From NCBI RefSeq assembly GCF_014396585.1, contig NZ_CP060717.1, forward strand, positions 1,612,001 to 1,676,000: DNA of 64,000 bases, given 5' to 3'. This document shows, piece after piece, positions 9,740 to 23,938 of this stretch. The position numbers and the translations under genes are program-made. Below the pieces are notes generated by a model that worked only from the letters and a program-made list of their open reading frames with translations, made no database searches and had not been told where the DNA came from. Source of the stretch: Sphingomonas rhizophila. Lineage in GTDB: Bacteria; Pseudomonadota; Alphaproteobacteria; Sphingomonadales; Sphingomonadaceae. The number at the start of each line of letters is the position of its first letter. Position 1 is the first letter of the stretch.

Positions 9740-9816
9740 GCGCCCGTAGCTCAGCTGGATAGAGCACGTGCCTTCTAAGCATGAGGTCGCTGGTTCGAAT
9801 CCAGCCGGGCGCGCCA
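9740..9816 (+). tRNA. tRNA-Arg (anticodon TCT)
   Basis: A 77-nt cloverleaf with encoded CCA. The acceptor GCGCCCG pairs with CGGGCGC; the D arm is GCTC/GAGC; the anticodon stem is CGTGC/GCATG around loop CTTCTAA with anticodon TCT at 9774-9776; the T arm is GCTGG/CCAGC around TTCGAAT. The discriminator base is G. Its 3' 45 bases are repeated exactly at 23894-23938, marking it as the integration site of the adjacent element. Confidence 0.97.
9772..9816 (+). repeat. attL: 45-bp direct repeat within tRNA-Arg
   Basis: Identical over 45 bases to 23894-23938, starting at the first base of the anticodon loop and ending at the CCA. The next base differs (G here, T at the right copy). This is the usual outcome of integration by a tyrosine recombinase into the 3' end of a tRNA gene, leaving the tRNA intact on the left. 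Confidence 0.93.
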
Positions 9817-9883
9817 GATTTTGGGGATTTTCTGAGTTTCCTAGTCTCTTCTAGGTATCAAGTAGGGAACTGTGGAGGCGTCC

Positions 9884-10927
9884 GTGTTTCGAAATCGCAC
9901 TGTTTTAATTGTCGGAGCTGGGGCGAGCTTTGAGGCCGACTTTCCGATTGGAGGCGAGCTGCTCGCCCGGTTAGCGAAGTCGCTGAACATCACCTATCAA
10001 TTCAATCAAGTGCAAACAGGCGATACGCGCGTTGAAAATGCGCTTCGTAGGCACTGTATAGAGGCCTTTGGCGGTGATCAGCACGCCGGCCTCGCTCTAA
10101 TGAATCAGTATGCAGCAGCAGGTCGGCGCATAGCTGAAGCGGCTCGCGAGGGAATGTCGATCGATGCCATTATCGATCAACATGAGAATCCAGACATCGA
10201 ACTGGTGGGCAAGGTTGGGATCGTACGAGAGATTCTAAAAGCCGAGGGATCGTCGAAGCTCAAATGTCCCAACGGACGGTATGACGAACTGAGCTTAGAC
10301 TCATGCAAAGACACCTGGCTTCCACGCCTAGGGCGTCTGTTGGTTGAAGGTCGTAAAATCAGTGAGCTAGAGCAGATATTCGACAACCTCACGATCATAA
10401 CATTCAATTACGACCGCAGCATCGAGCATTATCTGCCGTTTTCGCTGGTGAGCCACTACGGGATTACTCTGCAGCGGGCACGTGAACTGGTCTCCAAGCT
10501 TCGTATTTTTCACCCTTTCGGTACCGTCGGTCGCTTGCCTTGGCAGCAAGGGGAAGGAACGATCGTTCAATTCGGAGATTCTGATCAGGCCGACTTGATC
10601 GGGGTAAGTTCACAGATTCGAACTTTCACCGAGCGTTTATCCGACGAGGCCACCCTGAGCGAGATGCACAGCTCCATCAGCATAGCGGACCGTATTGTGA
10701 TGCTAGGTTTTGCCTACCACCGGCCAAACTTGGCGCTGCTTGAGCCGCGGTTTCCGACGGAAGCGAAGCAAATCTTTGGCACGGTCAAAGGCATATCGGC
10801 GCAGGGTCAAAGGGCAGTGAAAGACGAGGTGGCCGGCATGCTCAAGATTGGCGAACAGTACGTCAAACTTTTTGACAGCACCTGTTCGCAGTTATTCGAC
10901 GAAAACTGGCGCAGCCTCACCGCTTAG
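9884..10927 (+). CDS. SIR2-like family protein, candidate anti-phage NADase
   Basis: 347 aa from the GTG at 9884. This start is chosen because GGAGG lies five bases upstream, better than the GTG at 9872. The Rossmann-like NAD-binding start TVLIVGAGASFEADFPIGG is followed by SIDAIIDQHENPDI. TFNYDRSIEHYL contains the conserved Asn of SIR2-like domains (about residue 175), HPFGTVG follows near 210, and a closing strand IVMLGFAYHRPN lies near 270. It lacks an extra effector or transmembrane domain. Related SIR2-like proteins (ThsA, DSR, SIR2-Ago partners) deplete NAD on phage infection; that role is inferred here from family and location at the edge of a mobile element. Convergent with the next gene; the stops overlap. 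Confidence 0.78.
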   Translation: MFRNRTVLIVGAGASFEADFPIGGELLARLAKSLNITYQFNQVQTGDTRVENALRRHCIEAFGGDQHAGLALMNQYAAAGRRIAEAAREGMSIDAIIDQHENPDIELVGKVGIVREILKAEGSSKLKCPNGRYDELSLDSCKDTWLPRLGRLLVEGRKISELEQIFDNLTIITFNYDRSIEHYLPFSLVSHYGITLQRARELVSKLRIFHPFGTVGRLPWQQGEGTIVQFGDSDQADLIGVSSQIRTFTERLSDEATLSEMHSSISIADRIVMLGFAYHRPNLALLEPRFPTEAKQIFGTVKGISAQGQRAVKDEVAGMLKIGEQYVKLFDSTCSQLFDENWRSLTA

Positions 10928-11139
10928 ACGGGCGGCAGGATGTGCATCAACGCCGCCTTCAATCCGCACCGCCCGCACTTCAGCCGCGGCGCTAAAGCGC
11001 GAAGGCTCCCCGCCCCAGCCAACTGAGCGACCTCGTAGCCGCTAAGCGTCCTCGCCGCTCCACGGTCGGCACACTCGATCTTTAGGCCGGCGCCGAAGCG
11101 TACCAGATCAGCCGCGGTGCGAATGTGTTTAGTCGACAT
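10924..11139 (-). CDS. Small protein with a C-terminal CxxC motif
   Basis: 71 aa, beginning MSTKHIRTAADLVRFGAGL. It has an ECADRGAARTLSGYEVAQL segment and ends with APRLKCGRCGLKAALMHILPP; the CGRC could form half of a zinc site with the earlier Cys. Similar short proteins are seen in sphingomonad phage-derived islands, so I take it as real, function unknown. Its stop overlaps that of the SIR2-like gene. Confidence 0.55.
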   Translation of the reverse strand: MSTKHIRTAADLVRFGAGLKIECADRGAARTLSGYEVAQLAGAGSLRALAPRLKCGRCGLKAALMHILPPV

Positions 11140-11191
11140 TCTCGCCAGCTATCGTGCGGAGAACGATTCGAGAACATGCATTTTTTTGGGG

Positions 11192-11419
11192 TCAGTCGAG
11201 GAGGTCGCTCGGATCCCTCGTATTCTGCTCGATTGAGTCGAGATGCATGCGAATGGAGCTGAGCTCATCCGGCAGCACGTCTAGCACCTCCATCATTTTC
11301 AAATGGTCGGCGCGCCTGTCCATGTTCGCGGCATGAATAACCCTCACAATATTGTTGCCGAAGAACCAGATCGTGGCGGCAACCAGCACCGGTCCCCAAT
11401 AAGCGGGATCACTCCACAT
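11192..11419 (-). CDS. Small membrane-anchored protein with C-terminal helical tail
   Basis: 75 aa from the ATG at 11419, which has a run of six G upstream (ribosome site) and is better supported than the upstream ATG at 11473. One transmembrane segment (YWGPVLVAATIWFFGNNIV) near the N-terminus is followed by an amphipathic, probably coiled tail (DHLKMMEVLDVLPDELSSI). Such single-span plus coiled-coil proteins occur in phage modules, for example lysis accessory or holin-like proteins, but no family is recognised. Located inside the integrated element. Confidence 0.5.
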   Translation of the reverse strand: MWSDPAYWGPVLVAATIWFFGNNIVRVIHAANMDRRADHLKMMEVLDVLPDELSSIRMHLDSIEQNTRDPSDLLD

Positions 11420-11592
11420 ATGCCCCCCAGTTAAAACACATCCGCAATCAAACGTCAGACAGTGACGCCGCAATAGTCGATCGAGGGCAGCGATTCCTCA
11501 GCACTCGACTTCACGCAGTGTTGCCCCCTCGACGGCGAGGAATGCGTCGCTGCTCAGCTCGCTAACCGATCGCTCATCGAAACCAAGCCCAC

Positions 11593-12120
11593 TCAGAATT
11601 GCGGCTTAGCTTCAGTGGGAGCACGTGTGCACTGACCACTGAAGTCCCCTGCTTTGCCGGAAATTGAGATCGTCCCAGTCGTCCGATCGATGTAGATCTT
11701 CGGGTTGTTGAATGCGTTGACGGCAGCGCTCGCTGTGATCGTCCTTTCGCTCGCAACAACGTTCTTGAGCTTGAACCAACCATCCTTTCCGCCGCGAATG
11801 GCAGGCAGCATCGTGCGGGGCATCCGAATGCGATCGTCACCGGCAAAAAGCCTAACATCAACTTGACTGTCGAACCCTTGCTGGCGGGACGAATAGACGT
11901 TCGAGAAGCTGTTACCGTAACCACTGACTGGTACGGTCCCAACCGACCCGGACGCGCTAGAATTGCTATTTATCGTGGTCACATTGATCTTGTTGGCGAC
12001 GCCACCACCCATGCACGTCAACTCAAGTGGGACCTGGGATGAGGCTTGCAGCGCAAACGCTTCCGCCATCGCACTAACGCAAATCGTCAATGCGACCGTT
12101 GCGGCATAAAATTGCTTCAT
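11593..12120 (-). CDS. Secreted protein of unknown function, last gene of a four-gene coupled operon
   Basis: 175 aa. The signal peptide MKQFYAATVALTICVSAMAEAFA is followed by a Ser/Asn-rich stretch (TTINSNSSASGSVG). The mature part, with two Cys (ELTCMGG near the start, SGQCTRAP at the end) that could pair, is otherwise beta-rich in appearance (TASAAVNAFNNPKIYIDRTTG, ISISGKAGDFSG). The ATG overlaps the TGA of the nuclease-like gene (12117-12120) and has GGGGAGAG upstream. The C-terminal pattern is that of small periplasmic proteins reporting a relationship of residues to mRNA-free domains unknown to me; no function assigned. Confidence 0.65.
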   Translation of the reverse strand: MKQFYAATVALTICVSAMAEAFALQASSQVPLELTCMGGGVANKINVTTINSNSSASGSVGTVPVSGYGNSFSNVYSSRQQGFDSQVDVRLFAGDDRIRMPRTMLPAIRGGKDGWFKLKNVVASERTITASAAVNAFNNPKIYIDRTTGTISISGKAGDFSGQCTRAPTEAKPQF

Positions 12121-12590
12121 CGACTTCTCTCCCCGTTGGCCCCTCGGCATTTGTGCCCACCCCAATAGCGATCCCATTGAACAGCACCGCCCGCTCTGAT
12201 GACAGCGCAAGATAGGTCCCCAACCGAGGCCGATCGGCACCAAGCCGCCGTGCGCGAGCCGCCAGCGGAGCCTTGAGATTGGCACTGCAACGGTTCACTC
12301 CGAACAACGATGTGTCCTGTGGGAAGCATCCCGCGAGGCCCACCGAGCAGCAGCACAAGCCGATCGCGAGCATCCTTCCCGCTAACTTTGGGGCAGGGCT
12401 GCTCGACCTTACAACTGTCGTCGATCTCTCGTGCCGCGACACCGGCAAGGCGGATGCGCGGTCCTTCTGCGCACCAGATCGGCCCGTCTCCATCCCAAAC
12501 GGCTGTCGGCGTGCAAGTGAAGGTCGTGCCGGCCGCGACGATCGCGGGCGCGGCAAACATTATTGCCAGGAGCACGCCATTTTCCGCCAA
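12117..12590 (-). CDS. Secreted thermonuclease-like (SNase-fold) protein, degenerate
   Basis: 157 aa with a signal peptide (MAENGVLLAIMFAAPAIVAA). The body follows the SNase domain pattern: TFTCTPTAVWDGDGPIWCAEG, then PRIRLAGVAAREIDDSC with the Arg/Glu positions used by SNase enzymes, GKDARDRLVLLLGG, and near the C-terminus SVGDLSCAVIRAGGAVQW. The usual RYGR segment bearing the second catalytic Arg is altered (GSAGGSRTAAWC), so nuclease activity is doubtful. Four or more Cys suggest disulphides. The stop overlaps the next gene; the start lies 31 bases inside the upstream gene's end. Confidence 0.65.
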   Translation of the reverse strand: MAENGVLLAIMFAAPAIVAAGTTFTCTPTAVWDGDGPIWCAEGPRIRLAGVAAREIDDSCKVEQPCPKVSGKDARDRLVLLLGGPRGMLPTGHIVVRSEPLQCQSQGSAGGSRTAAWCRSASVGDLSCAVIRAGGAVQWDRYWGGHKCRGANGERSR

Positions 12591-13012
12591 GCTTCGCCAT
12601 TAGTGCCGGGAACTATTGGATCGGATCGATAGGGTCCGCCTGTCTCGACTATTCCCCCATCCGCCGAATAGGCGATTCTTTTCTCGATCCGGAGCGTGTC
12701 GCGAGTGCAGTCAATAACGACGAGCAGCTTTGATTCTCGGTAATTCACAGACGGGTTTCGCCGATGGTAGCCTCTGACCCAAAGGCGCGGCTTGATGCTT
12801 TTTGAAGTGACGGCTCTATGAAGATCGGTCGCCAGGATGGCGTAATCATCCTTGGCTCCTACCTTGTTGCTGTTGATCCAAAGTTTCCCGTCGAGCGTGA
12901 TGTCTATGCCGTGCGGAGCGCGCTCCATCGCCCACTCCAAAGGGCCGTCGATCTGTGGCTCAGTGGCGGCTTCCTGCGCCAGAGCGAGAGCCGCGAGCAC
13001 CAGAACGCTCAT
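12560..13012 (-). CDS. Secreted protein resembling the surface-adhesin E family
   Basis: 150 aa with a signal peptide (MSVLVLAALALAQEA). Features match the adhesin-E pattern loosely: KLWINSNKVGAKDDYAILATDL, a central RLWVRGYHRRN, SKLLVVIDCTRDTLRIE with one Cys, and a C-terminal Pro-Gly-Glu-Ala-Trp-Cys arrangement (IVPGTNGEAWRKMACSW) with the second Cys. It overlaps the upstream excalibur gene by four bases (ATGA) and the downstream nuclease-like gene by 31. Role unknown; the family name is a resemblance, not a demonstrated function. Confidence 0.6.
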   Translation of the reverse strand: MSVLVLAALALAQEAATEPQIDGPLEWAMERAPHGIDITLDGKLWINSNKVGAKDDYAILATDLHRAVTSKSIKPRLWVRGYHRRNPSVNYRESKLLVVIDCTRDTLRIEKRIAYSADGGIVETGGPYRSDPIVPGTNGEAWRKMACSWQ

Positions 13013-13344
13013 TCGCAGCCCACCCCGTCACCGTCCCGATCGAGGCGTCGCGAATAGCCGGGCTGTCCCTCGCGCACCGGCGCCGCGCCGGCAGCACGAG
13101 CCGCTGCGCAGTTGGGGAATGCCCCGCCTGACGATGACAGTCCGTACGATCGCTTCCGACCCGATGACGATGAAAGTGCGCTCCCGCCACCGCCGCCTCG
13201 ATGGCAGTGGTAGTCGCCCGTCTTGCGATTGTTATGGCAGCCCTGCGCATTAAGGCCCCCGCCATGCGCGACAGCCGGCGCGACCGGCACGCCGAAGGTG
13301 CCCACTCCGAGACATACAGCTACAACGCCCGGTAGCAGCTTCAT
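13009..13344 (-). CDS. Secreted excalibur-domain (calcium-binding) protein
   Basis: 111 aa. The signal peptide runs to about AVAHGGG. A His/Cys-containing CHNNRKTGDYHCHRG segment comes next, then a Gly/Ser linker. The C-terminal excalibur domain (PNCAAARAAGAAPVREGQPG, LDRDGDGVGCE) holds the DxDGDGxxC calcium-loop signature. This domain typically follows SNase domains in secreted nucleases; here the SNase-like domain is a separate gene two positions downstream, so the two may act together. First gene of the coupled run ending at 11593. Confidence 0.85.
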   Translation of the reverse strand: MKLLPGVVAVCLGVGTFGVPVAPAVAHGGGLNAQGCHNNRKTGDYHCHRGGGGGSALSSSSGRKRSYGLSSSGGAFPNCAAARAAGAAPVREGQPGYSRRLDRDGDGVGCE

Positions 13345-13435
13345 GCCTGCCCCCCTGTTAAATTCCGAGCAACCCGATCAGAGCGACAGACGGTCGGAGA
13401 GTCAATCCAGTGCGAAGCAAACTTGGTCAGTCGTT

Positions 13436-13451
13436 TCAGTTAACAAAAATT
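13436..13451 (+). repeat. Leader repeat copy 1 (AGTTAACAAAAATTTA)
   Basis: The 16-mer AGTTAACAAAAATTTA occurs here, about 45 bases before the start of the short secreted ORF at 13498, and again near 13829-13844, about 35 bases before the PEP-CTERM gene. The AT-rich core could be part of a promoter or a regulator site shared by the two genes. Coordinates are accurate to a few bases. Confidence 0.55.
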
Positions 13452-13497
13452 TACCGTAATTGATGTGCCGCCGAGTCGCTTTCGAAGGGGTGGCGTT

Positions 13498-13782
13498 ATG
13501 AGGAAGACTTTATCTGGCGGGCTGGTTGGCTTTGCCTTGACGGTGTTTGGGAGTGGGCCTGCTACCGCGGCGGACTACACAATAGTCGCGAATGTCACCG
13601 GCACGGAATTTACTGTGCCCTGTGATCCGCAGATCCCATCCTGTAATGCCTTCACGCCCTACTCTGCGACCGTCGAACGCTTCGTTTCCCTCGATCTGGT
13701 CACTGGCGACAATCAGTTCTTTTCAGGGACGCGCGACAACGGCGGCCTGCTCAGCGGCACCAATCAGCGGCAAGCGAAATGA
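13498..13782 (+). CDS. Short secreted protein, probably truncated relative of the PEP-CTERM neighbour class
   Basis: 94 aa with a clear signal peptide (MRKTLSGGLVGFALTVFGSG, cleavage after ATAA). GAAGGGGTGG lies upstream of the ATG at 13498. The mature part (YTIVANVTGTEFTVPC through FFSGTRDNGGLLSGTNQ) resembles the start of sphingomonad PEP-CTERM proteins, but the ORF stops with no sorting signal. No nearby frame continues it, so this is not one of the single-base frameshifts. The duplicated 16-mer before the next gene suggests loss of the 3' part by recombination. Confidence 0.5.
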   Translation: MRKTLSGGLVGFALTVFGSGPATAADYTIVANVTGTEFTVPCDPQIPSCNAFTPYSATVERFVSLDLVTGDNQFFSGTRDNGGLLSGTNQRQAK

Positions 13783-13828
13783 AGCAGACACTGATGCTAT
13801 AAAGGTCCTCAAGTCCGAGCTGCTTGTA

Positions 13829-13844
13829 GTTAACAAAAATTTAT
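13829..13844 (+). repeat. Leader repeat copy 2 (AGTTAACAAAAATTTA)
   Basis: Second copy of the 16-mer described at 13436, lying just upstream of the PEPxxWA-CTERM gene. After the shared 16 bases the two flanks diverge. Coordinates are accurate to a few bases. Confidence 0.55.
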
Positions 13845-13877
13845 CGGAGATTGGACTTTCGAATCAGGGAGGTTGGC

Positions 13878-14492
13878 TTGCTGCAGAAATGGAAATGGAG
13901 CCTGAAAGCCCTTTTAACGGCGTTAGTCCTAGCCTCGGCGAGCGCGTCCGAAGCTTCGGATAACCTTATCGCTAACGGCGGTTTCGAGACCGGTGACTTT
14001 ACCTCTTGGATTACCGCAGGCGACTCAGCATTCACGGGCGTCAACGGTTTCGCTACGCATTCCGGAGACTTCGCCGCTTATTTCTCGTCGAACAATCCCT
14101 TCACCATCAGTCAGGATTTCACGACTGACATCGGACGATCCTACACCTTCGGCTTCTGGGCTTGGAGCGTGCAGACTTCGTCGAGTGAGCGGCTGAGCTT
14201 CCTGATCAACGGGGACGCAATTATAACTCTTCTGCCGTGGCCGAACCGCCCTTTCACATATTTTGAGTACACTTGGACCGCCATCTCCGAAGTGACTCAA
14301 ATCGGTTTCACCAGTTCGCGCGGGACGTACCGTCTAGATGACATCACAGTTCTAGCTGCGCCGCCGCTGCCCGCTCCGGAACCCGGCACTTGGGCAATGA
14401 TGCTTTTGGGCTTTGGAGCGATCGGTGCGGGTCTGCGTCGCCGTCGTCAGTTGGACCCGGCTCTTTCAAGGGCTAGAGTACTGCCGCGGTAG
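13878..14492 (+). CDS. PEPxxWA-CTERM sorting-domain exported protein
   Basis: About 204 aa. The start is taken as TTG at 13878 because AGGGAGG lies six bases upstream; the earlier in-frame TTG at 13851 has no such site. A signal peptide (LKALLTALVLASASASEA) is followed by NLIANGGFETGDFTSWITAG, the jelly-roll type domain common in PEP-CTERM proteins, with RLDDITV near its end. The C-terminus has PEPGTWAMMLLGFGAIGAG and RRRR: sorting motif, transmembrane helix, basic tail. Such proteins are processed by an exosortase and often end up in exopolysaccharide or biofilm. Carriage inside a phage-like element is unusual. Confidence 0.87.
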   Translation: MLQKWKWSLKALLTALVLASASASEASDNLIANGGFETGDFTSWITAGDSAFTGVNGFATHSGDFAAYFSSNNPFTISQDFTTDIGRSYTFGFWAWSVQTSSSERLSFLINGDAIITLLPWPNRPFTYFEYTWTAISEVTQIGFTSSRGTYRLDDITVLAAPPLPAPEPGTWAMMLLGFGAIGAGLRRRRQLDPALSRARVLPR

Positions 14493-14697
14493 CTTTGAGA
14501 AATGTCCTGATCCGACGCCTCAACGGCATCTCCGCTTCCCTCTGCCCAAGATGGTTCGCTAACCGGACCATCTGGTTCCATTCCTCTAGCGGCAGTGCGT
14601 AACTCGATGACGGCGACAGTTCTGCTGTCTGCGCCGGCATTGCCTCATCGAAGGCGGGAAACTTTGGTTCAGGTACCGGCATTCCGACACGCTGCAT
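14473..14697 (-). CDS. Hypothetical protein
   Basis: 74 aa from the ATG at 14697 (MQRVGMPVPEPKFPAFD); a longer reading from 14832 would overlap the upstream gene by about 100 bases. The C-terminal half, SYALPLEEWNQMVRLANHLG then MPLRRRIRTFLKATAAVL, looks helical and basic. No family recognised. It follows the 219-aa gene in the same direction, and its end overlaps the end of the PEP-CTERM gene by 20 bases. Confidence 0.45.
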   Translation of the reverse strand: MQRVGMPVPEPKFPAFDEAMPAQTAELSPSSSYALPLEEWNQMVRLANHLGQREAEMPLRRRIRTFLKATAAVL

Positions 14698-14731
14698 CGG
14701 ATCGCCTGTGGCGGCAAGGCGAATGAAAGGC

Positions 14732-15391
14732 TCAGTCGTCCCCAAACAAGCGCTGAAAGTGGACGACCAGCGATGACCGCCAGCGTTCGACAAAGCTCGT
14801 CGCGTCCTGCCCTCCGCCAGCAAATTTCGCATCAGACTTGATCACGCCCATATCACCGAGACCCGCTGCGTAGAGCGCCGACTGGATAAGCGGCACTTCC
14901 TGTCTGGTGCTGCGAACAGTCTGGCAGAAATGAGCGTAGGCCTCGCGACCGCGTGACGGGTCGTCAGCAAACGCAGAGCGATGATCGGAGAGGTGCTCAA
15001 CCGCTCTGTCGATCGCCGCGTTCCGAGCATCAACAATCGGCTTAATCGCGGCGATGTGCTCCATCAGCTTCAGGAAGTGCTCTCCAGCTTCGTCTATGTC
15101 GGCCTTTGCCAGCGCAGCGGACGCAGCTTGGGCGACGCTGATATCGGTGACGGCATTCGCCTCATTCTGCTTCACCTGAGCCGACCAGGCGGATTCCAAA
15201 TCTTCGCGCTGTTTCTTCACCGATGCCAAGGCTCCGGCAATCATGTCTGCTTGGGATTGATCGATCTCGCCGGCGCGGAGTTTTAGCTGAACCTCTGCGT
15301 GACTCTCCTCCCCTTGCTGAATGGCGAAGTTGAAGAACTGCATTTGCGAGACGTAGCTCGCCTCAGTGAGGATTTGACGATGTGCGTTCAT
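14732..15391 (-). CDS. Hypothetical protein, largely alpha-helical / coiled coil
   Basis: 219 aa from the ATG at 15391, which has GAAGGAGCACGACC upstream; this outranks the ATG at 15436. The middle (about 35-140) is strongly helical and heptad-like (KLRAGEIDQSQADMIAGALA, KKQREDLESAWSAQVKQNE). No signal peptide or membrane segment. Not recognised. It sits between the scaffold/terminase module and the cargo, so it could be structural or a partner of the 315-aa protein upstream. Confidence 0.6.
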   Translation of the reverse strand: MNAHRQILTEASYVSQMQFFNFAIQQGEESHAEVQLKLRAGEIDQSQADMIAGALASVKKQREDLESAWSAQVKQNEANAVTDISVAQAASAALAKADIDEAGEHFLKLMEHIAAIKPIVDARNAAIDRAVEHLSDHRSAFADDPSRGREAYAHFCQTVRSTRQEVPLIQSALYAAGLGDMGVIKSDAKFAGGGQDATSFVERWRSSLVVHFQRLFGDD

Positions 15392-15504: not shown

Positions 15505-16452
15505 TTAGCTCAGCCGTTCCTCTCCGCGCTCGTCCGGATCAAAGAGCTCGTCCTGCCGATATTGATTCTCGAGCACCTCGACTATTTCCTCTACGACAAA
15601 CGCTTCGGAAATCAGTTCGTTGTCATAACCGTAACGAACCTCCTGGGTAACCGTGCATCGAAGTGCATCACCCGGCCGAACGTCTACCTGCCTAGCTTGG
15701 AATTTCTTCAGCCACTTCTCATCGGTAATTTTCGCGCGGATGGTTCGCTTGCCATGGCGGAACTCCCACTGCGCCGAGCCTAGATAATCGGGGCGCCGGA
15801 CAGCTAGGATCATCGGAGCGGGAGGAACGAGGATCGTTTCTCTGACAGCCAACGAGGCTAGGTCCAATCCTTCCCAATCCATTGAAAGATCGAAATTCTC
15901 GTCACCAGATTTTGAAATGAATGCGGCTTTGTCGGTCGGGGCGAGCCTTGCCAACGCCTTCGATACGTCCGTTGCGCTACTAAGTATGTCGGCGGCGCTG
16001 GGCACTCCGTAGGACGGAATAAATTTCACGTCCGTTTGCTTCGCCAGCGCCAGGAACTCATTCCGTAGGTCAGCCAGCGAGCCGGGACGAGAACGCTCCT
16101 CGCTGTCGTTTACCCAGCGAACAAAAGCGTACTTCGCCGCGACTAGATATTTGCCGACTAGCGGCTTCCAATCGAGCGAGTATAGAGCTTGGTCCTCGGT
16201 TTGCAGAAGCTTGTCACGCAACCAGACCTTAAGGGATCCGGCTTCGATGTCTTCGAGAACCATGACTGGTTCAATCGATGCGTCGATTGAGTGCGCTAAA
16301 ACCTTATCGAGCTTCTCGAAGGCTGAAATAAGGCCCTCGACGGCTTGAAATATCCGTTGCGGATGCTCCGCCGAACGGTCGAAATCGACATATATCGCAA
16401 AGTCAGCGTCAGGGGCCGAAGGCTCGCTTGTTGAGAGGCTAACCGTGGCCAT
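15505..16452 (-). CDS. Hypothetical cytoplasmic protein, 315 aa
   Basis: Begins MATVSLSTSEPSAP. The N-terminal domain reads FAIYVDFDRSAEHPQRIFQA and VMVLEDIEAGSLKVWLRDKL, the kind of 'LEDIExGS' segment seen in a group of uncharacterised proteins from defence-rich and mobile regions. The C-terminal domain has VRRPDYLGSAQWEFRHGKRT and DALRCTVTQEVRYGYDNEL, predicted beta-rich. It ends in an acidic tail (FDPDERGEERLS). No catalytic motif I can name. No membrane segment. It stands alone 113 bases from the next gene. Confidence 0.6.
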   Translation of the reverse strand: MATVSLSTSEPSAPDADFAIYVDFDRSAEHPQRIFQAVEGLISAFEKLDKVLAHSIDASIEPVMVLEDIEAGSLKVWLRDKLLQTEDQALYSLDWKPLVGKYLVAAKYAFVRWVNDSEERSRPGSLADLRNEFLALAKQTDVKFIPSYGVPSAADILSSATDVSKALARLAPTDKAAFISKSGDENFDLSMDWEGLDLASLAVRETILVPPAPMILAVRRPDYLGSAQWEFRHGKRTIRAKITDEKWLKKFQARQVDVRPGDALRCTVTQEVRYGYDNELISEAFVVEEIVEVLENQYRQDELFDPDERGEERLS

Positions 16453-16518: not shown

Positions 16519-17085
16519 TCATTGGCGCAGCTTCGCACCCAGACGACGGAACGTCCGGATCATCTCCGGATGATTGCCGAGGCCACTTTCATCCAGAAAC
16601 TCCCGAAACGCCGAGCCCTTCGTCGCGCCAGCCGCATTCAGCGCAGCATCAGCCAGACGCGTCGTCTCGTTCCAATTCGCGCGACCCAACTCGGCGTCGG
16701 CTTTGGCGGTTTTAACCCAGTCGGCCCTGATCTGCGCAAAGGCCTCGTTCTGCCCCTTCAGGATGCGCTCGTGGTACTTCGCCGCGAGGGGCATCAGCCG
16801 GTTCGCGCCATCGTTCGACAATTTCAGTTCCCGAAAGACCGGCTCGGCGTCTGCTATCATGGCGCGATCGAGGACAAAGCCTTCCGGCGCCTGAAGCGAA
16901 TATCCGAAGTCAGGCGCGCCGTGCGGGTTGATGGACGCGGTCTCCTCCTTCGGCATATCGTCCTTGTACAGAACCTCCTCGCGCGGCTTGGCTTCCTCCA
17001 TCGGCGCAGCCACGGCTTCCGTCTTGGGTACGTCGTCGGGGTAGAGCGTCGCCAGGCGCGTGTCGGATTGATCAGTGTCGGTCAT
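16519..17085 (-). CDS. Phage capsid scaffold-like protein
   Basis: 188 aa from the ATG at 17085, preceded by CCGGGGAGGATCGCT (strong ribosome site) and overlapping the TerL end by 14 bases. An acidic, Pro/Glu-rich N-terminal half (YPDDVPKTEAVAAPMEEAKP) leads to LQAPEGFVLDRAMIADAEP and then a helical region. It ends FLDESGLGNHPEMIRTFRRL, a C-terminal pattern found in phage scaffold or head-assembly proteins ('GLGNHPE..R...RIG'). Scaffold proteins guide procapsid assembly, and some satellites use their own to change helper capsid size. No capsid gene accompanies it here. Confidence 0.6.
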   Translation of the reverse strand: MTDTDQSDTRLATLYPDDVPKTEAVAAPMEEAKPREEVLYKDDMPKEETASINPHGAPDFGYSLQAPEGFVLDRAMIADAEPVFRELKLSNDGANRLMPLAAKYHERILKGQNEAFAQIRADWVKTAKADAELGRANWNETTRLADAALNAAGATKGSAFREFLDESGLGNHPEMIRTFRRLGAKLRQ

Positions 17086-18622
17086 AGCGATCCTCCCCGG
17101 AATATCGGTTGTATTGGTCAAGCTCGGCGTAGCGGTCGTATTCCCGCTCCTGCGCGGGCATGAGGTAAGTCGGGAGGGCGCGGGCTTCGACGTGCTCGGC
17201 AAAGGTCAGCGCCAAGGCATCCGAATAGTCCGATGACGGCAGGCCGCGGGCGCGAAGGTGTTCCTTCCGCTCAAGCTGGATCGCGTTGTCGGCGTTGTAG
17301 CCATATTCCAGCGCGGTAAGGTCGTCGGACAGTCGGGTGATGTTTGGCAGGCATCCCCGCTCCAGCCAGGCGCGAAGGTTGGTGTACATCTCGGCTCGCT
17401 TGTTGGCGACGCGGACGCGGTTCACGCCATCCCAGTTCGCCTCGCGGCCCTTGGCGCCGAAGTTGATCTCAAAGATCGGTACGCTCTCGCCGAGAAGCTG
17501 TCTGAGGCGATCGATCACGCCGCCGGCGTTCGGACCGCCAGCATCGACCATGATTGCATCCGGAGAGTAGCGGGCAGCCTCCGCCGCGATGTCGCCGGCA
17601 ATTTCCATCGAGTTGGCGCCGTTCCAGACCTTCCACCGTCTAGATCGGGCATCCCTGCCCTGCCTGATTGCCAGGACCGAACTGTCATCGCCGAAACGGG
17701 CATGGTCGACCCCGAAGATGATCGGGTCGTTGGGAAGGATGGCGCTATCGCGTGAAGGCCGCTCCATCGCCGCCGAAACAGTTTCCGACGCGATGAACTG
17801 CATCGATGATGCCGACGGAAACAAGCCGCGGACCCGGACTTTCACGAAGTCGCTGTCCTCTCCGTACGTATCTACCAGTTCCTGGAGGTGCTGCTTGTTC
17901 GTGCCCTCCACAGTCCGGCTGTCGATGTGGCGGGTCTTCCAGAGATGCCTGTGCTTACTGAAGGCCTCTCTGAAACGACCCGTGTTGCGGCTCGGATTCC
18001 CGAAGGCGATCCAGATGATCTCGGTCTGTTCGTCGGTCAGCGCCCCCTCAGTCACCTCCCAGATGCGGTCGTGGATGTTGGACGCTTCGTCGTAGAAAAT
18101 GACGATGCGGCGGCCCTGATTGTGCAAGCCGGCGAAAGCCTCCGGCGAATGGATCGACCAAGGGATGAGATCAGCTCTCCAGCTTCGCTCGTGCCCCTTC
18201 TGCGTCGACGTGATCGAAGTGACGGACTGCCGAAACCAGCTCTTGGTGATCGAGAGATTGTGCCACTTGGCCAGCTCTGGCGACGTTTTGGTCTGAAGCT
18301 GTCCATCCGTGTTCGCGGTGATGACGATGCGAGTATCGGGGCAAGTGTCCAGCGCCCATTTGCAGAGCATGCCGATAGCGGCGGACTTGCCGGGGCCGTG
18401 ACCGGACGCGACGGCGATGCGGAGCGGTGTGAAGCGCGTTTCAGGGTTGCTCAGGTGATCCCCGATCTCGCGCATGACTTCGATCTGCCAACGACGGGGG
18501 CCTTCAATGCCCTGAAGCGCTCCCTCGCCCCACGGGAAGGCGTACAGCGCATAGCGGTAGGGATTGGCCGCAAACCCCGCGATGTCCTCTGCAAGGCGTC
18601 TCTGAGCGCCACCAGCCGTCAT
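17072..18622 (-). CDS. Phage terminase large subunit (TerL)
   Basis: 516 aa DNA-packaging motor. The ATPase domain has Walker A SGHGPGKS at 73-80 and Walker B IVIFYDEA at 173-180. The RNase-H-like nuclease domain begins near 300, with GVDHARFGDDSSVLAIR carrying the first acidic residue (D306) and a second segment IMVDAGGPNAGG. It ends at DRYDRH. The ATG overlaps the TerS stop (18619-18622), the usual TerS-TerL coupling. Motifs are intact, so the protein is probably functional. In phages it docks on a portal; no portal gene is present in this element. Confidence 0.92.
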   Translation of the reverse strand: MTAGGAQRRLAEDIAGFAANPYRYALYAFPWGEGALQGIEGPRRWQIEVMREIGDHLSNPETRFTPLRIAVASGHGPGKSAAIGMLCKWALDTCPDTRIVITANTDGQLQTKTSPELAKWHNLSITKSWFRQSVTSITSTQKGHERSWRADLIPWSIHSPEAFAGLHNQGRRIVIFYDEASNIHDRIWEVTEGALTDEQTEIIWIAFGNPSRNTGRFREAFSKHRHLWKTRHIDSRTVEGTNKQHLQELVDTYGEDSDFVKVRVRGLFPSASSMQFIASETVSAAMERPSRDSAILPNDPIIFGVDHARFGDDSSVLAIRQGRDARSRRWKVWNGANSMEIAGDIAAEAARYSPDAIMVDAGGPNAGGVIDRLRQLLGESVPIFEINFGAKGREANWDGVNRVRVANKRAEMYTNLRAWLERGCLPNITRLSDDLTALEYGYNADNAIQLERKEHLRARGLPSSDYSDALALTFAEHVEARALPTYLMPAQEREYDRYAELDQYNRYSGEDRYDRH

Positions 18623-19050
18623 CGCGAGGCATCCGGCAGTGCTGGCTGGTCTTGGCCTTCCAGCGCGCGTTGACGGCGCTTGTCGATGACCGCGGCCAGG
18701 TCGAAGGTGTGATCGACCGTCATGTCTATGCGGTCTCCGTATTTCGATGGCGCCTGCTTGCTCGCTCGCCACTGAAGGTTGCTGAGTTGGACCTTGGCCG
18801 CGGCGGCACTGTCACGATCGATCGCCGTCTTTGCGATGCGATCCATCTCCGCATCGAACCACTCGCCTTGGGCATTGCGAGCGTGGGTGTAGGCCGCAGC
18901 TAGCTTCTCGTCCCTGGCTACCCAATCGAGGAAAGTACGGACTGCCGGCATCCCTTCCGAGCGGCAGATTGCGGCCAGCGGTTCGCCAGCTTCCAGGCGC
19001 TCGAAGATGTTTTCCGCGACTTCGGTAGAGTACGTTGAGGGACGTGCCAT
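18619..19050 (-). CDS. Phage terminase small subunit-like protein (TerS)
   Basis: 143 aa beginning MARPSTYSTEVAENIFERLE. The N-terminal helix-turn-helix part (LAAICRSEGMPAVRTFLDWV) would recognise the packaging site; a helical middle (AAAYTHARNAQGEWFDAEMD, then IDRDSAAAAKVQLSNLQWRA) is typical of oligomerising TerS proteins. The stop overlaps the TerL ATG. The promoter region at 19051-19200 contains two TAGGTAAC repeats. A satellite-specific TerS can direct helper packaging to satellite DNA; that is inference here. Confidence 0.82.
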   Translation of the reverse strand: MARPSTYSTEVAENIFERLEAGEPLAAICRSEGMPAVRTFLDWVARDEKLAAAYTHARNAQGEWFDAEMDRIAKTAIDRDSAAAAKVQLSNLQWRASKQAPSKYGDRIDMTVDHTFDLAAVIDKRRQRALEGQDQPALPDASR

Positions 19051-19428: not shown

Positions 19429-20640
19429 TCATCCCTTGGCCTCCAAGTAGGCGTTTGTTGCGGATGTTGCGGATGTTGCGGTTCTCAGACGAGACGCTGG
19501 GGAAGCGTCCACAGTTGCCCCCGAACTCGCCTCGTATCCAACGTATCCTAAGGATTGGGGTAGATACCGTGACCAAGCATCAGCAAAGTCCGATCGAGCG
19601 TAGCCCTTGGGTGTCGATCCGCTCAAACGAATGGTCGTTGGCCTGATCTCGTAGTCCCGGAGTCGCTTTGCGAGACCTCGGTCATCCAGTGGCTTTCCGC
19701 GAATGTCACCCCATGGAGACTCTTCAATGGCATGGAGGCCTTCGAGAATGTCCTTCGTGCGAAGAAGGGAGGGTCGATCGCCGACAACATCGGGCCTATC
19801 GAAGATGGTGCGGATGTCCAGGAGCAGCCTTACTCCCTGGCTAGGAGTGCTCTCCTTAGATGCCGCAACGAGCGCAACAGCCGCCGCACGAGCGGCGTTG
19901 GGCCAATCTCCGCCAGCCAAGTCCGCAACGGCTAACAGCGGCTCCCAGACGTCAGCATCGCGGTCCTGAATCGCGGCAGGAATCTCAGGCCACATCGCAC
20001 TTGCGTCAGACCTGACGATATTGGCCCAACTCTCAATCGCCTCCTTGAGACGCGTTCCCTCTGGCTCGTGTAGACGCCTCCGAAAAGGCTCCACGCGCTC
20101 GCTCGGCGCCCGACGCCGCATTCGAACAATTACGGAGCGGGTCAGAATTGTGTCGGGAAGATTTCCAAGACCGGCCATCGCCAGCGGACAAAATGCCGGT
20201 ATCTCCTCCGTCTCGATTTGCTTCCCTTTAACAACACAGCGACCGGCCTTCGCGCCACGACGGTGGCCAGCGTTGAGCAGGCCGCGAATTTCTTCGTTGT
20301 CCTTGGCCTTTGGTCCAAAGACGGTGTCGATCTCGTCAAAGAGAATGGTCGGCATGCCCTCTAGAGCTCCCACCTTCCGAAACAGGTACGCCGGAGTGAC
20401 GTTCACTGCCTCAACGGGCCGAGGGACGAGCAATTCGGTGACCTCAAGAGCGCGCGTTTTCCCACTCCCTGGCTCCGGAGAAAGGAATGCAATCCGTGGT
20501 GTCGATTCCCAAGCTTCCATCAGATGGCAGTGAATAATCCACAGTGTGTGCGCGACCTTAGTTTCGGCTGAAGGATACGCTACGAACCTGCCCAAGAAGC
20601 CGGAAACCTGATCAAGTAGCTGCGCTGGAGAGTGTGTCAT
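19429..20640 (-). CDS. DUF3631-type P-loop ATPase (phage/plasmid primase-helicase-associated)
   Basis: 403 aa from the ATG at 20640. Walker A PEPGSGKT lies at 55-62, Walker B MPTILFDEID near 97-105, then LNAGHRRGAKAGRCVVKGK and FCPLAMAGLGNLPDTILTRS with sensor-type residues, as in DUF3631 ATPases found behind primase domains of phages and satellites. Here the primase part is absent and the ATPase stands alone. A low-complexity tail (TATSATSATN) comes from GCGGATGTT repeats at 19458-19480. The ATG overlaps the upstream gene's TGA. Likely serves element replication. Confidence 0.8.
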   Translation of the reverse strand: MTHSPAQLLDQVSGFLGRFVAYPSAETKVAHTLWIIHCHLMEAWESTPRIAFLSPEPGSGKTRALEVTELLVPRPVEAVNVTPAYLFRKVGALEGMPTILFDEIDTVFGPKAKDNEEIRGLLNAGHRRGAKAGRCVVKGKQIETEEIPAFCPLAMAGLGNLPDTILTRSVIVRMRRRAPSERVEPFRRRLHEPEGTRLKEAIESWANIVRSDASAMWPEIPAAIQDRDADVWEPLLAVADLAGGDWPNAARAAAVALVAASKESTPSQGVRLLLDIRTIFDRPDVVGDRPSLLRTKDILEGLHAIEESPWGDIRGKPLDDRGLAKRLRDYEIRPTTIRLSGSTPKGYARSDFADAWSRYLPQSLGYVGYEASSGATVDASPASRLRTATSATSATNAYLEAKG

Positions 20641-20930
20641 TGACCCGCCTCCTCGCGCTCGAAGCAATCAGCGGCGACAAAGATGCGAACTATCGCGTTC
20701 GCAATGTCTCGGAGTTGATCGGCCTGCGCATTTGCGAAGCACCACCGGTTAGCCGCCTCATTGGCGAACCAAAAGAGCTCGCGCGCAGCTTCCGATGACG
20801 CTCTGATTGCCCTAGCGGCGGCTTTGTCGCGACCTCGACAGAGGCGGCGTCGCAGATGCTTTAGTTCTCCACTCTCCCAAGGTCGGAAGAGCTCTACAGG
20901 GTCTGCAAGGCGGCTGAGGGGCGCGTTCAT
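20637..20930 (-). CDS. Hypothetical protein in the AlpA-DUF3631 operon
   Basis: 97 aa from the ATG at 20930 (MNAPLSRLADPVELFRPWES). Basic and helical, with KHLRRRLCRGRDKAAARAIR and two Cys; ends FVAADCFEREEAGQ. The ATG overlaps the stop of the 56-aa gene upstream and its stop overlaps the DUF3631 ATG, so translation of the four genes is chained. No family recognised. Confidence 0.65.
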   Translation of the reverse strand: MNAPLSRLADPVELFRPWESGELKHLRRRLCRGRDKAAARAIRASSEAARELFWFANEAANRWCFANAQADQLRDIANAIVRIFVAADCFEREEAGQ

Positions 20931-21097
20931 GGCCGTGCCTCGATCCATACGCCGCCGCAATTGCACCGCGGGCGCCGAAGCGAGCGGATTGAACGGCGAT
21001 TCCTGATGCTGTAGAAGATGCTGGTCTGTTGCTGGCTAGCGATCAGATTGAGGGAGTCCTGCCAGGGGCTCCCTTTTCGATTGAGCCGGCCGCTCAT
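20927..21097 (-). CDS. 56-aa protein with a CxCGG motif, between the AlpA-like gene and the 97-aa gene
   Basis: Short gene starting MSGRLNRKGSPWQDSLNLIA and ending RRPRCNCGGVWIEARP. The ATG (21095-21097) overlaps the AlpA-like TGA (21094-21096) and its TGA overlaps the next ATG (20927-20930), so it fits exactly into an ATGA chain, which strongly supports that it is real. The Cys-x-Cys-Gly-Gly near the end could bind metal together with a partner. Function unknown. Confidence 0.7.
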   Translation of the reverse strand: MSGRLNRKGSPWQDSLNLIASQQQTSIFYSIRNRRSIRSLRRPRCNCGGVWIEARP

Positions 21098-21373: not shown

Positions 21374-21964
21374 TTAGATTAGCTGGGCGCTGCCCGCTGC
21401 CATCTTCCGAATTTCAACCTGACACTCGGCTTCGGTCATCGATCGTCCAGCGATCGTCGCTTCGCGCAAATCGATGCTATCCTCGGCCTCGGCATCGCAA
21501 TCATCGAACCATTTTCGTACCTGCTGCCAGGTCACTTTCGGACGTTGGGCGCGCTCCGGAGATTCGTTGAATAATTGCGCGACCCGCTTGCTTGCCGCTT
21601 TGGTGTCCATGTCGAAATGGGGCCGAAGAAGAGCGACCGCCTTTGCGACAAGGAACCGTCCGATCCGCTCCCACTCATTCAGTTTCACGCCCGAACGCGA
21701 CTTCACGCCCTCAAAGGTCAATGGGCTTCTGCGCCCGCCCGAAAGTGCGCTTTGGACGGCAAGCAAGCAATGACGCGCGAAGTGCAATTGCTGTGAGGTG
21801 AGAGGGAGCCGATTGAGCGCGACCATCAACCAGAACAGCGTCTCCTCCCCGGTGTCGATGATGGCGTGATTACGCGCGGCTCCAGTACTTAGCAGACTTT
21901 CATACAGTTGATTGGTGTCGCCCAATCCTCGCGCGAGCCTTTCATCAAATTCTGCCAAGGTCAT
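21374..21964 (-). CDS. Hypothetical protein downstream of the integrase
   Basis: 196 aa from the ATG at 21964 (MTLAEFDERLARGLGDTNQL); the longer frame from 22078 would overlap the integrase. Helical, with HAIIDTGEETLFWLMVALNR and a basic middle (GRFLVAKAVALLRPHFDMDT), ending CQVEIRKMAAGSAQLI. No family recognised. It follows the integrase by 37 bases in the same direction and may be co-expressed with it. Confidence 0.55.
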   Translation of the reverse strand: MTLAEFDERLARGLGDTNQLYESLLSTGAARNHAIIDTGEETLFWLMVALNRLPLTSQQLHFARHCLLAVQSALSGGRRSPLTFEGVKSRSGVKLNEWERIGRFLVAKAVALLRPHFDMDTKAASKRVAQLFNESPERAQRPKVTWQQVRKWFDDCDAEAEDSIDLREATIAGRSMTEAECQVEIRKMAAGSAQLI

Positions 21965-22001
21965 AGTCAGATCAATTGGCACCTGCTCGAAGATGTCTTC
22001 C

Positions 22002-23162
22002 TCAGCCACGGATCGAAACAACCGTACTGCCCGATGCTCCGTCAATTGCGCGGGCAAGGTCAGCCGCCCACCGATCAAGCGCGCTGCGCTTCTCTGGTGC
22101 GTAGCTGTGGAGTGCGTAGACCTTTGCTGTGACGCCCTTCACCGCATGATTGAGGATGCGACCGACGACTTCTTCTGACACGCCAAGGCGGACCATATGC
22201 GTGGCCGCAGTCCTGCGAAGATCGTGCAGCGTCCAAGGCTTCAATACCGCACCCGATGCCTTCAAAAACTTGTCGAGCCGAGCCTTACCTTTGGCAAAGC
22301 CGCTGATGTGGGTCTCGCCATCCGACGTGAACACAAACGGGCCGATCCGCGGGACGGCCTTCAGGATTTCAACGACGGGCCGCGAGAGTGGCACAAGCGT
22401 CGCCCGATCGCCTTTCGTGTCCTCAGCGGTAAGCGTCCACGTCCCTGCATCCAGGTCGACCGCATCCCATCGCATCGCCGCAACTTCCGTCCGGCGCTGC
22501 GCGGTCAGTTGAAGCACACGAACGTATGGGCCGAACGGATAACCCATGTGTTCGGCAGCTTCCCACACCGCTTTGCTCTCGTTCATATCGAGAACGCGGT
22601 CACGCGGCGTTTCGGACTTCGGCTTCTCGATACCCTCGATTGGCGACGCTTCGATCCAGTCGCGCGAAAGGGCGAAGCGAAAGATCGTCTTCACTTGCGA
22701 GAGCACCCGATTGGGAAGCACGTCCCCTTCGATACCCTCGATCAGTTCGCGAACGTCAGACCGTTTGATGCTCTGAATTTTGCGCTCTCCCCAAGTCGGC
22801 AGCACGTGCATCTCCAGGCGGCGCTCTTGGAGCTTCCAGCTATCATTCTTTGGCTTGGCGACCTTCTCGATCCAAGTCTCCGCCACGGCGCCGAAGGTGC
22901 GGTCCAGCGCGTCGGTCGTGCCGTCGCTCGCCAAGGCTTCCAGAATGCGCTCAGCGGCCTTCCTGGCGGCTGCCAAGCCCATCGGCGGATAAGTGCCGAC
23001 CTTCTTGTTCAACACCTTCGGACCAACACGGCGTCGTACGATCCACGTCTTCTTGCCCGAAGAGCCGATGCGAAGCCGCAGCCCTGTCACCTTGTGATCG
23101 GGATGCTCGGCTTGGCCGGCGACTGGCGGCTTCAGCGCCGCGATCTTCGCATCGGTCAGCAT
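22002..23162 (-). CDS. Tyrosine recombinase/integrase of the element
   Basis: 386 aa. An N-terminal DUF4102-like arm-binding part (LTDAKIAALKPP, TGLRLRIGSSGKKTWIVRRR) is followed by a core-binding domain (about 88-170) and the catalytic domain with QRRTEVAAMRWDAVDL (Arg near 223), HDLRRTAATHM (HxxR at 313-316), LNHAVKGVTAKVYALHSY (catalytic Tyr 349 or 354). This is the P4-type integrase class that targets tRNA 3' ends, matching the 45-bp repeats. It lies at the end away from the intact tRNA, and is preceded closely by the 157-aa gene. Confidence 0.94.
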   Translation of the reverse strand: MLTDAKIAALKPPVAGQAEHPDHKVTGLRLRIGSSGKKTWIVRRRVGPKVLNKKVGTYPPMGLAAARKAAERILEALASDGTTDALDRTFGAVAETWIEKVAKPKNDSWKLQERRLEMHVLPTWGERKIQSIKRSDVRELIEGIEGDVLPNRVLSQVKTIFRFALSRDWIEASPIEGIEKPKSETPRDRVLDMNESKAVWEAAEHMGYPFGPYVRVLQLTAQRRTEVAAMRWDAVDLDAGTWTLTAEDTKGDRATLVPLSRPVVEILKAVPRIGPFVFTSDGETHISGFAKGKARLDKFLKASGAVLKPWTLHDLRRTAATHMVRLGVSEEVVGRILNHAVKGVTAKVYALHSYAPEKRSALDRWAADLARAIDGASGSTVVSIRG

Positions 23163-23165
23163 GGC

Positions 23166-23639
23166 TCAAGCCGCTTTCGCAACATGGCCGGTCCGCAACC
23201 GGCGACGCTCTGACACAATGCATTCGGACCTGTGGAAAATGCCCACGTTTTCGTTGTGATCGACTTCGTCACACATGAAATCAAACAGCGTGTCCGAGGC
23301 GATCGAGACCGCCTTAACCTCCTCGGCTGTCATCTCGCTATTCGGATCGGTGATGCAGTTGATGTGAAACTGTAGGATCAGGGCATCCACCCAAGTGGTA
23401 GGCACTTGATGTAGGATCGCCAGCCGGAGCGCATCGGTTTCGCCGCTGTTCTGGAGCATAGCGTCGCGATATCGAAACTGAAGAAGTCGCTCGCTTTCGT
23501 TCTTATCCGAGAGTGCGGTGGAAGCCTCGTCGACCCGATTATACTCTTCCCAGGCGCGCTCGTATCGCTCGTGCATTGCTTCGATCAGCGACTGATAGTT
23601 GGCCGCTTTAGGTTCATTGGATAGATTGGGAGTAGCCAT
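23166..23639 (-). CDS. Hypothetical protein upstream of the integrase
   Basis: 157 aa, MATPNLSNEPKAANYQSLIE. Helical, with YERAWEEYNRVDEASTALSD and LQFHINCITDPNSEMTAEEV; two Cys near the end (DFMCDEVDHNENVG, RSECIVSERRR). Its stop is three bases before the integrase ATG, so the pair is co-transcribed. The leader upstream contains four TAGGTAAC-type sites. It is larger than typical excisionases and has no obvious helix-turn-helix. Function unknown. Confidence 0.6.
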   Translation of the reverse strand: MATPNLSNEPKAANYQSLIEAMHERYERAWEEYNRVDEASTALSDKNESERLLQFRYRDAMLQNSGETDALRLAILHQVPTTWVDALILQFHINCITDPNSEMTAEEVKAVSIASDTLFDFMCDEVDHNENVGIFHRSECIVSERRRLRTGHVAKAA

Positions 23640-23707
23640 TGATCGTCTCCTAAGGACGGTTTTGGTCAGGGGCGGCCCAGCGGTACCAGCGCTGTGTCGT
23701 CCCGCCT

Positions 23708-23795
23708 GTTACCTACTGAGTAGCCTGACATGTGGCCGCTGATATGACCCCGTGTCTGGTTACCTAGCTGGCGAGCAGGTAACGATTTAGGTAAC
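23708..23795. promoter_or_regulatory. Cluster of four TAGGTAAC/GTTACCTA sites upstream of the integrase operon, next to attR
   Basis: GTTACCTA at 23708-23715 and 23759-23766 (one orientation), CAGGTAAC at 23776-23783 and TAGGTAAC at 23788-23795 (opposite orientation, 12 bases apart). They lie 69-156 bases upstream of the leftward 157-aa gene and within 190 bases of attR. They could be operators shared with the terminase promoter, or arm-type integrase sites. The rest of 23640-23893 shows no gene. Confidence 0.6.
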
Positions 23796-23893
23796 AAAAC
23801 TCAAAACACTACGCAACCCCCTCGGACTTATCTGGACGGTTTACAGAGGGGAGATGGACAGACTTGGACGTTGGCGCACACTAGCTGGCAAGG

Positions 23894-23938
23894 CTTCTAA
23901 GCATGAGGTCGCTGGTTCGAATCCAGCCGGGCGCGCCA
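23894..23938 (+). repeat. attR: 45-bp direct repeat of the tRNA-Arg 3' end
   Basis: Exact copy of 9772-9816 (anticodon loop to CCA) without the 5' half of the tRNA, so it is not itself a tRNA gene. It marks the right end of the integrated element; chromosomal sequence resumes at 23939. Confidence 0.93.

Follow-up and report, generated by a model that had tools for sequence, protein, structure and literature searches.

The stretch of DNA analysed here, hereafter the window, comprises 64,000 nucleotides of Sphingomonas rhizophila (NZ_CP060717.1, positions 1,612,001 to 1,676,000 of a host genome that is a single 2.56-Mb contig). Positions 9772-23938 of it, about 14.1 kb, form an integrated element bounded by two perfect 45-bp direct repeats lying 14,122 bp apart, and its G+C content is 58.3%, against 65.0% for the rest of the 64-kb window. 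Read on the minus strand from the right end, the order is a 157-aa (amino acid) open reading frame (ORF), integrase, a 234-aa ORF, AlpA, a 109-aa ORF, DUF3631 ATPase, TerS, TerL, scaffold, a 315-aa ORF and a 219-aa ORF, followed by a cargo arm; beyond that arm, adjoining the tRNA, lies a gene with weak likeness to SIR2, on the plus strand. The features on which the argument turns are these:

9740..9816, plus strand: tRNA-Arg(TCT), the integration site (ARAGORN)
9772..9816, plus strand: attL core, the 3' part of tRNA-Arg(TCT) (identical 45-bp direct repeat)
16519..17085, minus strand: scaffold, 188 aa, epsilon15 gp6 type (phrog_458, 1.9e-35; epsilon15 gp6 match)
17072..18622, minus strand: terminase protein TerL, 516 aa, epsilon15 type (phrog_2, 2.4e-40)
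18619..19050, minus strand: terminase protein TerS, 143 aa, Sf6 type (PF20901, 4.6e-29)
19429..20667, minus strand: DUF3631 ATPase, probable replication protein (PF12307, 1.5e-61)
20637..20966, minus strand: 109-aa conserved small protein (homologue 36% identical at the same place in viral contig L026)
21094..21291, minus strand: AlpA-type excisionase/regulator (PF05930, 5.8e-16)
22002..23162, minus strand: tyrosine integrase (PF00589, 2.9e-18; PF13356)
23894..23938, plus strand: attR core (identical 45-bp direct repeat)

A sequence-only reading of the window had named the att repeats, the integrase, AlpA, DUF3631, TerS, TerL and a GNHP scaffold-like protein, all of which were borne out by the repeats and by Pfam and PHROGs, and the comparison with phage scaffolds that it had proposed did place the last of these, by profile search, with phrog_458 and epsilon15 gp6. 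Its statement that portal, capsid and tail genes are missing likewise held in Pfam (20 element ORFs), in PHROGs (19 of those ORFs plus the ORF at 14473-14832) and in tblastn, where 191 proteins of related phages and capsid-bearing elements, searched against the element at E 0.01, matched only TerS, TerL, the scaffold and one further short stretch. The latter (32 residues, 34%, E 0.002, two capsid-protein queries, 14422-14517) overlaps the last part of the PEP-CTERM gene in a different frame and is taken for chance. The element thus combines an integrase and a specific att site with the lack of a complete virion gene set, no portal, capsid or tail gene being recognised, as expected of an integrated phage satellite. 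We use "portal" for the epsilon15 gp4 family, presumably the portal protein, which its record and PHROGs call a head-tail adaptor (phrog_332), and "scaffold" for the gp6 family, which we take, partly from recall, to be the scaffold and which its record and PHROGs label protease. An empty-site comparison through the gene to the right of attR was uninformative, that gene having many matches per genome.

In epsilon15 the genes run TerS, TerL, gp4, gp6 and capsid gp7, and the element does not have the corresponding TerL-portal-scaffold-capsid order of epsilon15-like prophages. Among 110 distinct scaffold loci, gathered by similarity to window genes (one search being confined to the best 80 of 313 matches), 78 show that order, one shows TerL-portal-scaffold at a contig end, two show TerL-scaffold, and TerL is not in view in 29. 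TerL and scaffold are therefore separated by a portal gene in 79 of the 81 loci showing both, the exceptions being the element and L026, an IMG/VR contig of 8,087 bp that is truncated at either end. The order in L026 is integrase, an unknown gene, an AlpA-like HTH_17 gene, a homologue of the 109-aa protein, an AAA_25 ATPase where the element has DUF3631, TerS, TerL, a 144-aa ORF and the scaffold, at which the contig ends; its TerS-TerL-scaffold block contains no portal gene. TerL is 67% identical between the two and the scaffold 54% (MAFFT) or 49% (tblastn). Positions 2471-2740 of L026 are related to genes that precede TerS and TerL in phages, a region that the element does not possess. Scans of viral contigs by TerL, scaffold, 109-aa protein, L026-type ATPase and TerS (one of them limited to the best 80 of 313) returned only L026 of this kind; a single scan of genome contigs gave three loci, all phage-type; and TerS relatives in three genomes (G486, G446, G365) stand in what look, from their gene runs, like ordinary phage loci. 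TerL matches scoring 200 bits or more mark 131 loci. Neither an epsilon15-type portal nor a scaffold match accompanies TerL in 30 of them; 21 of these hold less than 3 kb after TerL (genome G011 included), and of the remaining nine L033 alone was read and is another phage type.

The three head genes are tightly packed, TerL overlapping TerS by 4 nt and the scaffold by 14 nt. TerL has no internal stop and agrees at 74 of the 79 columns conserved at 95% or more in 93 other TerLs, including residues that we take for the Walker A and B motifs and three nuclease aspartates; it matches 379 phage records, the top-ranked being 47% identical. Limits on score, coverage and open frame were passed by 126 TerL loci, which merging of near-identical sequences reduced to 95. 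In the maximum-likelihood tree built from these, the element and L026 are sisters (100/99) inside the epsilon15-like phages, with L093 next (100/98), a phage having a portal gene, scaffold and capsid whose contig begins 302 nt before its TerL match. Since the sisters are nested among epsilon15-like phages, the portal-less pair seems to go back to a single origin within the phages. The TerS proteins of the pair are 60% identical (173 bits, tblastn), while the best other TerS proteins reach 68-72 bits against the element (L030, L108, L253, L280). A profile of the two was run on the 120 TerL loci that offer 800 nt or more of sequence ahead of TerL. It matched below 1e-5 in 19, of which three are L026 and copies of the window, where the scores of the profile's own members prove nothing, and the other 16 score no more than 70 bits. 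Judged from these comparisons, no phage TerS in view comes as close to either TerS of the pair as these do to each other; an own TerS is what satellites need for marking their DNA. Between element and L026 dN/dS is about 0.17 for TerL and about 0.22 for TerS, at a dS of 1.7 that is near saturation, and was not computable for the scaffold; both satellite TerLs are intact and look to be under purifying selection.

The scaffold, which matches 81 phage records at E 0.01, is rearranged at its ends. Of 83 distinct complete scaffold ends, 80 carry a GNHP-like motif, which is followed by 35-50 residues in all 79 others and by 15 in the element's protein (in this count L026 and L127 run off their contigs). 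Phage scaffold tails end in a hydrophobic-Y/F stretch, with LYP in 17 of 36 aligned; of the 64 cluster representatives 185 aa or longer, 36 entered the alignment, and the tail profile was made from 35, one having no anchor. This end motif stands twice at the N-terminus of the element's scaffold, as RLATLYPDDVPK and REEVLYKDDMPK. The phage-tail profile scores 19.2 bits there, a value reached by none of 500 shuffles, and by tblastn the last 14 residues of the L094 scaffold align at 79% to residues 10-23 (E 0.005). As a separate observation, the scaffold of phage contig L152 (9998-10678) bears an LYP-type motif at both ends and could possibly represent, by its sequence, an intermediate for the element's arrangement. 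An AlphaFold2 model gave a confident helical core (residues 61-188) behind a disordered first 60 residues; it had no match to PDB folds at E 0.001 and seven BFVD matches below 0.001, two of them called putative protease, and the scaffold profile matched one solved chain, dTor_6x35L, at 9e-5. The label "protease" that the gene carries in PHROGs and GenBank was set aside, given the helical core and the missing PDB fold match, and from the model we read the gp6-type protein as a scaffold. For SaPI1, a Staphylococcus aureus pathogenicity island (SaPI), PMC6893505 and PMC5644958 describe CpmB and the helper scaffold as having a common C-terminal capsid-binding motif, CpmB competing for the site; by analogy, the element's scaffold could act like CpmB.

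Loci that might supply the missing parts do occur nearby in the taxonomy. In one other genome of the genus, G445, TerL, a portal gene, scaffold and capsid stand together in a prophage-type locus, and six more genomes of the family (G008, G122, G393, G462, G465, G508) have such loci, a TerL match being absent from the stretch examined in G122; all of these are gene sets that may or may not belong to complete prophages. The length of the element relative to epsilon15 (14.1/39.7 kb = 0.36) is near the satellite/helper ratios of P4/P2 and SaPI1/80alpha. Shells of P4 and SaPI1 go to T=4, according to PMC6893505.

With this evidence we consider the element to be, probably, a phage satellite that carries its own terminase and a rearranged scaffold and would package itself into the particles of an epsilon15-like helper. 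The sequence-only reading had already suggested a satellite, and that part has gained from the relatives, namely the L026 block, the TerL clade, the TerS pair and the tRNA-Arg islands described below, while the redirected packaging and altered procapsid that it foresaw keep their conditional form. In such a scenario, an integrase-AlpA-ATPase chassis would have taken up the TerL-scaffold part of an epsilon15-like podovirus, together with a TerS of its own. Upon entry or induction of an epsilon15-like helper, AlpA and the integrase would cut the element out at tRNA-Arg, and its replication would fall to the DUF3631 protein. The element's TerS would then mark the element's DNA, and its TerL, being near enough to that of the helper, would dock on the helper portal and fill the particle. 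The scaffold, finally, would join the helper capsid protein through its conserved core and LYP-type motif and, with the motif at the opposite end and no tail, would compete with the helper scaffold, probably giving a smaller shell.

Related islands were sought through the integrase. Of 71 genomes of the genus, 13, the host included, have relatives of it at E 1e-40; the surroundings of nine were all searched by tblastn, six were gene-called and three were searched for repeats. Integrases of three other genomes of the genus are 55-64% identical to that of the element, one having an in-frame stop. A 10.5-kb island in G077 (L248, 1392-11977) lies, as in the window, at tRNA-Arg(TCT), between perfect 49-bp repeats, and carries AlpA, HNH and HK97-type capsid protein (5958-7373) genes, while neither TerL nor portal was recognised when 12 of its ORFs were run against PHROGs; its capsid protein may alter a helper shell, by analogy with the capsid-protein homologue of SaPIbov5. 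At tRNA-Arg(ACG), a 10.8-kb island in G411 (L253, 1689-12530; perfect 50-bp repeats) encodes an integrase, an AlpA-like protein, an Sf6-type TerS, a C-5 DNA methylase and an Mrr-type nuclease, and a 13.6-kb island in G920 (L247, 928-14586; perfect 54-bp repeats) has AlpA, AbiU2-like and DUF3800 genes, PHROGs recognising no head gene in the 10 ORFs scanned. The locus in G921 (L249), with an in-frame stop in its integrase, no tRNA and no core match, looks like a decayed island. The same gene set at tRNA-Arg(TCT), for which the sequence-only reading had proposed a search, was met in no other genome: TerL matches are confined to three of the 71 genomes of the genus, namely the host, G445 with its prophage-type locus and G925 (a distant match, 7.1e-20, seen as a match only).

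The probable replication gene leads further afield, to capsid-bearing elements on the one hand and to minimal integrase-AlpA elements on the other. Relatives of the DUF3631 ATPase are found in L224 (with TerS, protease and capsid) and L225 (with capsid, portal and TerL), and an AAA_25 ATPase of the L026 type in L257 (with TerL, capsid, portal, integrase and tRNA-Glu), so that the chassis is tied through its ATPases to capsid-bearing elements. As a side observation, these three are capsid-bearing elements on viral contigs with a make-up like that of capsid-forming phage-inducible chromosomal islands (cf-PICIs). A 5.2-kb island in G113 (L288, 10218-15506), between perfect 49-bp tRNA-Met repeats, amounts to the minimal chassis: integrase, a 201-aa ORF, AlpA, DUF3631 and a 301-aa ORF; L287 has integrase, AlpA and DUF3631 with large cargo genes.

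The other genes of the element are listed here:

9872..10927, plus strand: weakly SIR2-like protein, 351 aa, candidate anti-phage cargo (PADLOC SIR2, 2e-4; Pfam SIR2_2, 0.034, below cut-off)
10924..14832: cargo small proteins, namely a 71-aa ORF, a 157-aa ORF (phrog_18798), Excalibur, PEP-CTERM and a 119-aa ORF (Pfam, PHROGs)
14732..15391, minus strand: 219-aa protein, function unassigned (open frame with coding signal; no match better than 0.01 in Pfam or PHROGs)
15505..16452, minus strand: 315-aa accessory protein, candidate defence gene (PADLOC PDC-S42, 1e-8)
21374..22078, minus strand: 234-aa unknown protein between the integrase and alpA (open frame; no match better than 0.01 in Pfam, PHROGs or PADLOC)
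23166..23639, minus strand: 157-aa unknown protein (coding signal; no match better than 0.01 in Pfam or PHROGs)

The 71-aa, 119-aa, Excalibur and 157-aa cargo ORFs have homologues in the tRNA-Arg island L247. We also considered whether the 315-aa protein might be a capsid protein in disguise. Its homologues, in two other genomes of the 246 examined, lie amid ordinary-looking genes (at L283 a 62-bit match to epsilon15 gp15 occurs about 1 kb from the homologue), and its structure model, which is alpha/beta and of low confidence, has no capsid-named match among the 50 rows listed out of 431. The idea was rejected on these two grounds, and the protein is probably not a capsid protein.

Several observations weigh against the satellite reading and should be taken together. 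Only two members are known, one of them an 8-kb metagenomic fragment, and L026 may carry a capsid gene further on, because its contig stops inside the scaffold. As regards the scaffold, the N-terminal motif of L026 scores 5.2 bits, which 7% of shuffles reach and which is not significant, and N-terminal matches occur also in phages (L152, 18.0 bits; L047, 5.7; L179, 4.3), whose scaffolds all retain the C-terminal motif. Two core tblastn alignments (L094, L105) extend 6-8 codons past the stop of the element's scaffold, with little likeness in the one inspected; the tail may have gone either through a chance stop or by design. The short overall length of the protein is a weak argument about size, since 5 of 104 complete scaffolds, with uncertain starts, are called shorter. 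The TerS of L093 lies outside its contig, so the nearest phage does not figure in the TerS comparison. In the host genome epsilon15-type portal and capsid gave no match and the only scaffold match was the element's own, in a search without a positive control, where an empty outcome carries little weight. Coding signal in the left-arm cargo is weak in places. The integrase-AlpA-DUF3631 chassis also occurs in L287 and L288, where no head gene was recognised. Lastly, an intact epsilon15-type TerL in G011 (L017, 1495-3024) stands beside a TerS-like gene and outside the TerL clade of the element, and has a broken TerL fragment, bearing a stop, 2.4 kb away; the surrounding stretches that were read gave neither a portal nor a scaffold match. 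As this case shows, the family does contain TerL remnants that stand alone.

The last two points lend themselves to another account, in which an integrative genomic island with defence cargo captured three phage head genes, now passengers or put to another use, and no transfer in particles takes place. Chassis of the same type with no recognised terminase or scaffold in L247, L287 and L288, the cargo ORFs common to the element and L247 and the solitary TerL remnant of G011 all fit it. We nevertheless think it unlikely, as the portal-less TerS-TerL-scaffold block recurs in L026 beside a different ATPase with the TerLs forming one clade, TerL and TerS look selected, the head genes overlap tightly, and different head genes are present in two further tRNA-Arg islands of the genus. 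Decidedly improbable, in our opinion, is that the block serves as an anti-phage weapon which poisons epsilon15-like packaging or assembly by dominant interference and not the transfer of the element itself: two candidate defence genes and a scaffold with conserved core and rearranged end motif would suit such a use, but a full TerL with its conserved residues and a separate TerS exceed, in our judgement, the needs of a decoy. That the element is a prophage stripped of its structural genes, as the phage descent of TerL and scaffold could suggest, seems very improbable indeed and was rejected, because tblastn with the 191 proteins found no portal, capsid or tail remnant and the arrangement recurs in L026; the att repeats are moreover perfect, DUF3631 occurs with integrase and AlpA in islands and capsid-bearing elements, and of the two marks by which the sequence-only reading would have recognised decay, structural genes at the gap in related phages and degenerate TerL in most copies, the former is present (the portal gene in 79 of 81 loci) and the latter was not seen, both satellite TerLs being intact.

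We return to the element as a satellite in order to place it among known systems. It resembles SaPI1, as far as the relevant passages of PMC6893505 describe it, in its own TerS, in an internal scaffold retaining a short helper-scaffold motif and in its similar size; it differs in adding TerL, in a scaffold core homologous to epsilon15 gp6, and in a motif that is N-terminal and doubled, whereas that of SaPI1 is C-terminal. Among the genes that mark type 1 SaPIs, the element has its own TerS, and nothing CpmA-like nor any other remodelling gene was recognised in the Pfam and PHROGs scans, which did not include a direct comparison with CpmA and CpmB. The P4-like set consists of sid, psu, delta and the alpha-primase; no Pfam match so named was found among 20 ORFs, the coverage of that set by Pfam being unchecked. 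Membership in type 1 SaPIs or P4-like satellites is not supported. With cf-PICIs the element shares integrase, AlpA, replication ATPase, TerS and TerL, but none of the capsid, protease, portal and connector genes that define them in PMC10690885 was recognised in it, and it is not a cf-PICI. Nor is it an intact epsilon15-like prophage: it shares TerL and the scaffold family with epsilon15-like podoviruses (Uetakevirus and sphingomonad relatives), yet portal, capsid and tail are missing, TerS is distant from those in view and the scaffold is rearranged. The PICMIs (phage-inducible chromosomal minimalist islands) of Vibrionaceae likewise have integrase, AlpA and a replication enzyme near att, L288 being the most PICMI-like of our islands; unlike the element, they are described in the corresponding passages of PMC10803314 as having no capsid-remodelling gene, lying at fis and using a primase of other Pfam families. 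In the literature, judged by titles, the beginnings of abstracts and some passages, and with most subscription papers and all bioRxiv preprints outside its scope, we found no satellite with TerL and scaffold but without capsid and portal, and, by title and abstract, no study devoted to sphingomonad phage satellites.

The combination of motor and scaffold without shell genes was not seen among the satellites compared. We tentatively propose that the element may stand for a distinct satellite class, with a full packaging motor and a rearranged scaffold copy and with portal, shell and tail borrowed, and that it may belong among alphaproteobacterial tRNA-Arg satellites bearing different fragments of the head module (motor and scaffold, capsid and HNH, or TerS only). 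Since the satellites compared either borrow the head proteins of their helper or make a head of their own, a motor and scaffold without a shell would be in between, and a scaffold with its end motif at the opposite end would amount to a natural experiment in how shell size is governed by an internal scaffold. It would also place phage satellites in the sphingomonads.

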